A stretch of DNA of 64,000 bases from Planctomycetota bacterium (lineage in GTDB: Bacteria > Planctomycetota > Planctomycetia > Pirellulales > Pirellulaceae): NCBI GenBank assembly GCA_016872725.1, contig VGZC01000022.1, positions 1-64,000 of the forward strand, given 5' to 3'. The notes below the pieces were generated by a model that had not been told where the DNA came from, searched no databases, and saw only the letters and a program-made list of their open reading frames with translations. Positions 54,386 through 59,522 of the stretch are shown here, piece after piece; positions within the stretch are counted from its first letter, which is position 1; the number at the start of each line of letters is the position of its first letter. A program made the translations under genes and the position numbers.

Positions 54386-55288
54386 CTACCAGACTTCGAG
54401 CGTGGTTTCGAGTTCGATGCCGAGCCGATCGAAGACCGTCTTGCGCAGGATGTCGACCAGTTTCAGGACGTCGCTCGCCGACGCGCCCGGATGGGCGATC
54501 AGGAAATTCGGATCGCGATCGGAGACTTCGGCGTTGCCGACCCGCGTTCCTTTCAATCCGGCCTGTTCGATGAGCGACGCGGCGGACGCCCAGCTCGGGT
54601 TGGCGAAAACCGCCGCCGCGCACTGGCTCGCAAGGGGCTGCGCGGCCTTCCGCATGATCCACAATTGTTGCATCCGTTGGGTCAACAACGCGGGCTCGCC
54701 TCGATCGAGAATGAACTCGGCGCGGAGGATGACGAGGTCGTCGAGATTGCTTGCGCGGTACGAGAACTGGAGTCCGTCGCGGGCATACGTCTTGGTTTCG
54801 CCACGGCGCGTCAACGTCACGACGCCGGCCGTCCATTGACCGATGTCGGTTCCCTGGGCATTCGTATTCGATTTGAGTGCGCCCCCGATCGTTCCGGGGA
54901 TTCCGACGAACGATTCGAGGCCGGCGAGTCCTTCACGTACGGCCGTGGAAACGACATGTCCGAGCCGAGCGCCTCCGCCCGCCGTCACGGTGCGGTCGTT
55001 CACCGTTATTTCGGTGAACGCCGGAGCCGTCACGGAGATGACCAGATCCGGAACGCCCTCGTCGCGCACCAGCAGATTCGATCCTCCCCCGAGGATGCGA
55101 ACCGGTACGCCGTTCGCATCGCACCGGCGCAGCAGTTCCCGCAATTCGTCGGCCGTCGTCGGTTCGGCGAAGTACTCGGCGGGACCTCCCAGCCTGAGCC
55201 AGGTATGCGGCGCGAGGGGTTCGTTGGCTCGAACCACATGTTCCAGTCCCTGAAAGATCCGCATGGCGTCATCCATCCCCGGCTCCAT
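54386..55288 (-). CDS. murB: UDP-N-acetylenolpyruvoylglucosamine reductase, with altered active-site residues
   Basis: 300 residues. FAD enzyme reducing UDP-GlcNAc-enolpyruvate to UDP-MurNAc in peptidoglycan synthesis. FAD-binding 'ILGGGSNLLVRD' (65-76) and 'GIPGTIGGAL' (129-138), 'FSYRAS' (Tyr177, Arg178) and the type II C-terminal pattern are present. The catalytic Ser/Cys motif, normally Ser-Ala-Gly-Ser/Cys before Val-Phe-x-Asn-Pro, reads C223-A-A-A226-V-F. The C-terminal Leu-Glu-x-Glu-Val reads 'LETTLEV', so the second catalytic Glu is also uncertain. Either a divergent active site or reduced activity. An in-frame ATG at 55276 is an alternative start. Followed directly by ftsQ. Confidence 0.9.
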   Translation of the reverse strand: MEPGMDDAMRIFQGLEHVVRANEPLAPHTWLRLGGPAEYFAEPTTADELRELLRRCDANGVPVRILGGGSNLLVRDEGVPDLVISVTAPAFTEITVNDRTVTAGGGARLGHVVSTAVREGLAGLESFVGIPGTIGGALKSNTNAQGTDIGQWTAGVVTLTRRGETKTYARDGLQFSYRASNLDDLVILRAEFILDRGEPALLTQRMQQLWIMRKAAQPLASQCAAAVFANPSWASAASLIEQAGLKGTRVGNAEVSDRDPNFLIAHPGASASDVLKLVDILRKTVFDRLGIELETTLEVW

Positions 55289-58629: not shown

Positions 58630-58964
58630 TCCAAGGGTACTCGGTATTTTGCCGTAAGATCGTCTCCATGACGATAGACGCGCGCGGAGGATTCCCGGGC
58701 CCGCGGGTCGATTCGAGTCTGGGTCGGGTACGCGTACGCGCTCGGCGGCGCGGACGGCGCCTGTGAACGGCCGGACCTGTTCGCTTCTCGGGCCATTGGC
58801 CTCGCGGAATTCGATCGGTCGTTCGTGAATCGAGTTGACGGGCGCGGGGGGATCCCGCTAGAGTGATGAAGTCCCGGAAGAGCACGACCGAAACGGCCCG
58901 TGGATTGTGGTCCGGTCATCGCACTTGCCATCCGCGGGCCGCGTTTGCGGGAGGAGGACTAGCA
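58630..58964. other. Divergent intergenic region, 335 bp
   Basis: Separates the cytochrome gene from the small helical protein gene. Holds a promoter candidate at 58835-58864 for the latter. No other feature recognised. Confidence 0.5.
58835..58864 (+). promoter_or_regulatory. Candidate promoter for the small helical protein gene
   Basis: TTGACG (58835-58840), 18-bp spacer, TAGAGT (58859-58864). The predicted start is about 94 bp before the ATG at 58965. Confidence 0.45.
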
Positions 58965-59381
58965 ATGACGGTTCGTGAGTCCGACACGAGCGGACTGGCG
59001 TCGGGGTGTTATCAGGAATTGCGGACGCAGCTCGATCGCCTTGGCAACTGTGTTGCGACGACGCGAAGCGATCCCGAAGAGATTTTGTTCGCGCTTCGCA
59101 AACTGCAGCGCGCGATGATCGTCCGATTCGCGCGGGAGCTCGCCTGGCATCAGTCGCGTGTCGGTCAATGTCCGTGGCTGGAGCCGGATGTCCGGAAGCT
59201 TGAATCCCGCCACGATCGGCTCATGGCCGAAGTCGCGTCGATCCAGGCAAGCAGCGATCGCCATCCGCTCCATGTCTGCACGCGGGTCGCGGACCTCGCC
59301 GAGCGACTCATGGAGCATGAGACGGCCGAACGGCGGCTTTACGACGCGTTGGCGAGCGCCGAAACGGTCAACGCCCTCTGA
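58965..59381 (+). CDS. Small helical protein of unknown function, possibly hemerythrin-like
   Basis: 138 residues, all-helical prediction with no signal or membrane segment. Contains His/Glu groups reminiscent of hemerythrin helices ('LESRHDRLMAEV', 'RLMEHETAERRLYDAL'), which could bind a di-iron centre, but the full set of ligands is not certain. GAGGAGG lies about 8 bp before the ATG; an upstream frame to 58863 has no extra similarity. It stands alone, followed by a minisatellite and the convergent HtrA gene. Confidence 0.6.
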   Translation: MTVRESDTSGLASGCYQELRTQLDRLGNCVATTRSDPEEILFALRKLQRAMIVRFARELAWHQSRVGQCPWLEPDVRKLESRHDRLMAEVASIQASSDRHPLHVCTRVADLAERLMEHETAERRLYDALASAETVNAL

Positions 59382-59396
59382 ACCGTCGAGACCCGC

Positions 59397-59522
59397 GCCG
59401 GACGGTGTTGTCGCCGGACGGTGTTGTCGCCGGACGGTGTTGTCGCCGGACGGTGTTGTCGCCGGACGGTGTTGTCGCCGGACGGTGTTGTCGCCGGACG
59501 GTGTTGTCGCCGGACGGTGTTG
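59397..59522. repeat. 16-bp minisatellite, seven full copies plus one partial
   Basis: GCCGGACGGTGTTGTC repeats perfectly from 59397 to 59508, with an eighth copy truncated after 14 bases. Lies between convergent genes (15 bp after the helical protein, about 56 bp from the HtrA gene). Three units are needed to keep frame, so it is not a normal coding repeat. Confidence 0.95.

Follow-up and report, generated by a model that had tools for sequence, protein, structure and literature searches.

Does a MurB homologue with other residues in place of the proton donor and the catalytic Glu still reduce a peptidoglycan precursor and, if not, for what is it kept? This question was raised by a gene in the window, the 64,000-nucleotide stretch of planctomycete DNA analysed here (positions 1 to 64,000 of contig VGZC01000022.1; Table 1); the genome to which the window belongs is referred to as G000. 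The gene product was full-length with an open frame, contained QPLASQCAAAVFANP, and ended in GIELETTLEVW. It exceeded the Pfam cut-offs of PF02873 and PF01565 and both NCBIfam equivalog cut-offs: NF010480 (273 bits versus 259) and TIGR00179 (175.2 versus 144.5). The AF2 model (mean pLDDT of 94.6) gave TM-scores of 0.92-0.93 to 4pyt, 1hsk, and 3tx1; the 18 best Foldseek matches were MurB entries, and the nearest solved relatives by sequence were also MurB structures (4pyt, 3tx1, 9dtk, and 1hsk). Among the 80 top-ranking loci (of 578 confirmed), the named ones nearest to the window MurB included Pirellulaceae, Stieleria, Rubripirellula, and Mariniblastus, which suggested Pirellulaceae as the family of G000. 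A second, normal MurB was not found elsewhere in the G000 genome search: MurB is present as a single copy, with one MurB_C match genome-wide.

Table 1. Features of the murB-ftsQ locus (positions are those of the window).
Feature	Position	Strand	Remarks
MurB homologue, 300 aa	54386..55288	(-)	FAD-binding domain (FAD_binding_4) and MurB C-terminal domain (MurB_C)
FAD-binding loop, Gly-Gly-Gly-Ser-Asn (67-71)	55076..55090	(-)	Kept
Arg178 codon	54755..54757	(-)	E. coli Arg159; kept
Cys223 codon	54620..54622	(-)	Candidate substitute donor of the preliminary description
Ala226 codon	54611..54613	(-)	Proton-donor position (E. coli Ser229; type IIb Cys)
Asn230 codon	54599..54601	(-)	E. coli Asn233; kept
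Thr296 codon	54401..54403	(-)	E. coli Glu325 position
FtsQ homologue, 324 aa	53406..54380	(-)	Starts 5 nt past the murB stop; long N-terminal helix followed by an FtsQ-like fold

In the alignment with 4pyt, CAAAVFANP of the window MurB was placed opposite CAGSIFRNP, and when E. coli MurB was aligned with 61 MurB rows representing 60 genomes, Ser229 and Glu325 corresponded to Ala226 and Thr296, respectively. A preliminary description of this DNA had claimed that the donor Ser was replaced by Ala226, and possibly also the catalytic Glu; both replacements were confirmed. Therefore, the Ser/Cys donor at position 229 (E. coli numbering) and the Glu at 325, both expected of a MurB enzyme, were each absent. 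On the other hand, the final Glu motif, which had been regarded as shifted, was in register: Leu293-Glu294-Thr295-Thr296 aligned gap-free with E. coli LEPE325, and Glu298, two residues beyond Thr296, was rejected as the catalytic Glu. Lys214 (E. coli K217) was kept, besides Arg178 and Asn230. The proton donor has been described as Ser in type IIa MurB and Cys in type IIb (PMC3689657). The window MurB shares the fold, the two MurB Pfam domains, and the FAD loops with the type IIb enzyme of Thermus caldophilus (2gqt; PMC3689657), and has a gap in the column of type I Tyr190, as does type IIb; MurA-positive relatives from Pirellulales also have Cys at the donor position. It differs from type IIb in having Ala for Cys and Thr for the catalytic Glu, and in a genome in which MurA and the later pathway genes were undetected.

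In G000 (95.8% complete), searches for MurA, penicillin-binding (PBP) transpeptidases, SEDS proteins, and MurG yielded nothing noteworthy, and the best MraY-like match was weak (46.9 bits). Exactly one EPSP-synthase-type protein was found by PF00275 (E 4.6e-114); since it scored just 31 bits with TIGR01072, this protein was taken as AroA, and no hidden divergent MurA was detected. A MurE-like ligase (Mur_ligase_M and Mur_ligase_C) was encoded near murB but outside the window (C22:69503-70888; L143:5503-6888), unaccompanied in G000 by other Mur ligases. Since MurA, PBP, SEDS, and MurG were undetected, there would be no known precursor for the window MurB to reduce.

A first set of 60 genomes (G000 and 59 relatives), 37 of which (including G000) belong to one family, was analysed in the same manner, with MurA status decided by TIGR01072. 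MurB was found in all 60 genomes, and MurA over the cut-off in seven; an eighth, G046, carried MurA fragments under the cut-off and was counted as positive. SEDS exceeded the cut-off in exactly these 8 genomes, PBP transpeptidases in the 8 and in G035 (9% contaminated), and MraY in 7 of the 8. By PF00275, two enzymes were found in 7 of the 8 MurA genomes (both G046 matches were pieces of MurA), and most MurA-negative genomes had one; the exceptions were G005 and G034, with none, and G002, with three AroA-like enzymes. MurG passed in 3 of the 60 genomes; four more of the 8 MurA genomes had sub-threshold matches (193-247 bits) and G047 had none. Contrary to a clean pattern, MurG also matched at 225-227 bits, below the threshold, in MurA-negative G041 and G042, with weaker matches (100-168 bits) in G038, G059, and G024. 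Separately, a Mur-ligase gene adjoined a MurG-like glycosyltransferase in three genomes without MurA, PBP, and SEDS (G041:C1:1022711-1025200, G042:C1:5090637-5093215, and G059:C1:4573852-4576384).

In a sample of the order (297 genomes with completeness of at least 90%), MurB was present in 291 genomes and MurA over the cut-off in 29; for the family subset (148 of the 297), the corresponding numbers were 147 and 0. At 95.8% completeness, the absence of one gene might reflect a gap, but gaps are an unlikely reason for the same genes to be missing from 37 genomes of the family. The loss of murA, C, D, F, G, J, and ftsW has been reported for Pirellulales, Isosphaerales, and Gemmatales, and the same report names murB, mraW, and ftsK as the three dcw genes that the whole PVC superphylum retains (PMC12283558). 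According to another report, murB is non-essential in Planctopirus limnophila, though very conserved in Planctomycetia; this species still has the peptidoglycan pathway (PMC10632474).

Active-site residues were compared with MurA status in 21 MurA-positive rows, 86 MurA-negative rows (85 genomes), and 15 outgroup rows, the last compared by residues with MurA status unassigned. The genomes included a second batch taken from the best 80 of the 578 confirmed loci (50 checked for MurA; 46 used after removal of repeats). The excluded rows were E. coli, 12 loci outside the test set and unselected as outgroup, and seven repeat genomes (L064, L065, L066, L075, L081, and L093, identical; L092, 97% identical). 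Cys229, Asn233, and Glu325 were found in 21/21 MurA-positive rows, and Ser or Cys229 with the Asn and Glu in 15/15 outgroup rows. Among the MurA-negative rows, 75 of 86 lacked Ser/Cys229, Glu325, or both, and 11 kept the two. Position 229 was occupied in these 86 rows by 15 different residues (C25, R12, M12, Y8, L7, A5, Q5, I2, F2, T2, V2, P1, S1, W1, and H1), position 325 by E21, Q19, N13, A11, D5, S4, G4, H4, T2, L2, and V1, and position 233 by D53, N28, E3, S1, and H1. It had been proposed that sharing of CAAA by close relatives would support a clade-specific active site; since none of the aligned relatives has CAAA and position 229 is hypervariable, this column looks like erosion instead. 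Erosion was not uniform, because the 11 MurA-negative rows above, as well as L168 and L169, were intact, and Arg159 was kept in 77 of the 86 rows. L168 and L169 came from seven further MurA-negative genomes (L164-L170; outside the main counts), the other five of which were eroded.

The association between residues and MurA gave a p value of 1.3e-14 when relatedness was ignored; a phylogeny-aware test was not significant, with 3 independent pairs on supported branches and a median p of 0.5. On a MurB tree constructed by a quick method, MurA status had to change 9 times, with at least 3 of these changes on supported branches. Two cases among the MurA-negative loci may be recorded here. L136 was counted as MurA-negative, had intact residues and a ddl-like gene after murB, and its MurA was probably lost to an assembly gap. 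G058 (L008 and L031; MurA-negative, 6% contamination) contained two MurBs with 78% identity, both with Cys229 and Glu325.

A MurA-like gene that fell short of the family cut-off was found next to a MurB in three genomes from the family of G000: G275 (L163), G302 (L161), and G309 (L162), with 3% contamination each. This MurB was additional to another MurB_C match in each genome, and contained Ser229, Glu325, and Asp at 233. These pairs served as a natural control: every examined MurB with MurA beside it or in the genome had the catalytic Ser/Cys and Glu. Furthermore, N233D by itself does not indicate an inactive enzyme because Asp233 occurs in these three proteins. As a replacement acid it was rejected: the window MurB keeps Asn, and Asp is also found together with Ser229 and Glu325 in the MurA-adjacent MurBs. 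The G302 pair was located among polysaccharide genes (Wzy, glycosyltransferase, and flippase), and a muramic-acid-like exopolysaccharide sugar in peptidoglycan-less bacteria is a possible role for the three pairs.

The N-terminal helix of the FtsQ homologue encoded next to murB was taken as a membrane anchor. All 8 Foldseek matches of its AF2 model (residues 6-324) below E 0.001 were from FtsQ or FtsQ-FtsB(-FtsL) entries, with modest TM-scores of 0.31-0.48; there was no Pfam match at E 0.05, thus neither POTRA_1 nor FtsQ_DivIB_C. The homologues of L063 and L118 matched POTRA_1 at E 0.03 (under the cut-off), and those of the outgroup loci L120, L121, L123, and L133 passed. In two MurA-positive clusters (G053 and G049), FtsQ homologues follow ddl, that is, in the dcw position. 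Where 1000 nt or more of downstream sequence was available, ftsQ was located within 450 nt of murB in 65 of 83 MurA-negative and 3 of 20 MurA-positive rows; in 9 more MurA-positive rows, the distance was 853-2104 nt, with ddl in the gap in G053 and G049. Universal linkage was rejected: 17 of the 83 MurA-negative rows had no ftsQ in the downstream stretch examined. In a long-stretch reading of 11 MurA-negative loci (80 kb of the window contig and 20 kb of the others; E. coli dcw and window-locus proteins as queries), murB and ftsQ were detected, together with a MurE-like gene in three (the window locus, G048, and G021), and further dcw genes were detected in none of the 11.

To compare columns, sites conserved in at least 90% of the 21 positives and at least 70% of 26 outgroup rows were selected, giving 62 near-universal MurB sites; position 229 is outside this set (Cys in positives, Ser or Cys in outgroups). 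The window MurB was non-canonical at 9 of these 62 sites. In MurA-negative rows, erosion was strongest at six of the sites, corresponding to E. coli G266, A227, E325, N233, G228, and Q288. In Pseudomonas MurB, the NADP+ contacts include Glu335, Asn243, and Lys227, and Gln288 contacts the substrate diphosphate (PMC3689657); the first three were taken to be equivalent to E. coli 325, 233, and 217, respectively, by a constant offset of 10.

These results suggested that the window MurB is most likely a pseudo-reductase, i.e., an FAD-fold protein kept for another function, to which we assign a probability of roughly 0.65. Judging from its residues, the protein would be devoid of reductase activity. 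It probably descended from a type IIb (Cys-donor) MurB in a lineage that would have lost the peptidoglycan pathway, and hence the substrate of MurB, with subsequent loss of the residues for the reductase half-reaction. The MurB fold would have remained, FAD is very probably still bound, and selection would retain the protein for a second function independent of Ser/Cys229 and Glu325. This function may be protein-protein or regulatory, and is possibly tied to the FtsQ membrane protein often encoded adjacently. A more specific proposal is tentative: in Pirellulales devoid of peptidoglycan, a catalytically dead MurB flavoprotein might work with this FtsQ in the machinery of the envelope or of budding without FtsZ, perhaps as a subunit that senses flavins or nucleotides, its second job having been gained before the loss of the pathway and making it unlosable. 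Retention of the fold with loss of the catalytic motif is a general feature of pseudoenzymes (PMC10211241).

Alternatively, the protein may have been repurposed as an oxidoreductase that still depends on FAD but converts another small molecule in the former substrate cleft. The FAD-loop sites (Gly67, Gly69, Ser70, Asn71, Pro131, Gly132, Gly135, Gly136, and Asn141) were conserved in 88-100% of MurA-negative rows while substrate-site residues changed, and lower-scoring Foldseek matches of the window MurB included flavoenzymes with other substrates: D-lactate dehydrogenase and oligosaccharide oxidase. An 11-row subclade with Stieleria and Rubripirellula had uniform Asp233 and Asn325, which look settled rather than random and would fit a new role for the cleft; this subclade and the two further intact MurA-negative genomes slightly reduced our confidence in the pseudo-reductase. 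However, over all MurA-negative rows, the active-site columns were hypervariable with no single new consensus, and a new catalytic role is considered unlikely.

It is quite improbable that murB is a dying relic, decaying after the loss of the pathway with its deletion pending. Such decay would be consistent with the erosion of the active site, the 11 MurA-negative loci with little other dcw detected, and the 6 of 297 genomes without MurB, none of which has MurA over the cut-off. However, no internal stop was found in the MurB_C matches of the 60 genomes of the first set, MurB is retained by the other 291 genomes, and the FAD loops are conserved as described above. Moreover, dN/dS values (Nei-Gojobori) for close MurA-negative pairs with measurable dS, taken from relatives rather than from the window species, were 0.04-0.11, showing purifying selection in these relatives. 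Eroded pairs were equally constrained: 0.05 for L034/L077 (Met229 and Ala325) and 0.07 for L107/L118 (Met229 and Asn325); the pair L007/L008 retains the catalytic residues. In this set, L104/L106 was saturated and L107/L122 nearly so, and the genome of L092 had no MurA check of its own.

An active MurB that still makes UDP-MurNAc with a substitute donor (Cys223, water, or another side chain) is very improbable, even though R178, K214, N230, and the fold are kept. Rhodopirellula baltica, which we take to belong to the same family as the window genome, bears on this point. MurNAc and DAP have been reported for R. baltica, and all species analysed were said to carry the essential genes (PMC4432640), which opposes a simple reading of "no muramic acid" and would favour an active enzyme. 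Speculatively, polysaccharide-linked MurA-MurB pairs could be one source of MurNAc in this species. Against an active window MurB, the pathway genes were undetected in G000, whose single EPSP-type enzyme is AroA-like, and Glu325 is gone while the 15 residues at 229 offer no common replacement. Ser229 of E. coli MurB has reportedly been demonstrated to be the general acid by work on the S229A mutant. This mutant (PDB 1uxy), which was among the Foldseek matches, resembles the window MurB as a folded MurB with Ala at the donor position; however, the change in the window is natural, the Glu is lost as well, and the genome is without the pathway. The 223 column is variable; Cys occurred there in 8 aligned sequences, and since two of them (L067 and L072) have normal Cys229 and Glu325, Cys223 is unlinked to the loss of the donor. 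Of the preliminary description, the residue replacements thus stood, whereas neither of its explanations, takeover by Cys223 or a different proton relay in peptidoglycan precursor synthesis, found support. A sequencing or assembly error at 54609-54630, which had also been raised, has a negligible probability: nothing was found in its favour, the reading frame is uninterrupted, and numerous relatives are altered in the same columns, each differently.

The orphan murB of Pirellulales, Isosphaerales, and Gemmatales has already been published, with active-site residues unmentioned in the relevant passages of these reports (PMC12283558 and PMC10632474). A literature search of titles and abstracts yielded no named pseudoenzyme MurB and no account of the loss of its catalytic site. 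Therefore, the survival of murB beyond its pathway is published, and the erosion of the active site and its link to the absence of MurA are the addition made here. The finding also goes beyond the preliminary description: a MurB that looks deficient as a reductase is conserved and under selection in bacteria in which the pathway was undetected. It is reported that murB is among the few cell-wall genes that planctomycetes retain after the loss of the others (PMC12283558), and its detection might be taken to indicate that some wall synthesis persists. If the retained MurB lacks the catalytic residues, it carries no information about a wall, and a confident annotation, over the equivalog cut-offs for UDP-N-acetylmuramate dehydrogenase, would hide a conserved protein. 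The window MurB also provides a concrete entry to the growth and division of these bacteria without FtsZ and peptidoglycan synthesis.

Two minor observations were made. Trp210 and Trp300 were both invariant in the 86 MurA-negative and 21 MurA-positive rows; among 17 non-planctomycete rows, Trp300 was found in 4 and Trp210 in none. These residues may represent a possible lineage-specific contact surface predating the loss of the pathway. Elsewhere in the window, a perfect 16-bp tandem repeat (59396-59522; 7.9 copies of the unit CGCCGGACGGTGTTGT) was located between an ORF (58863-59381) and a gene for a trypsin-like/PDZ protease.
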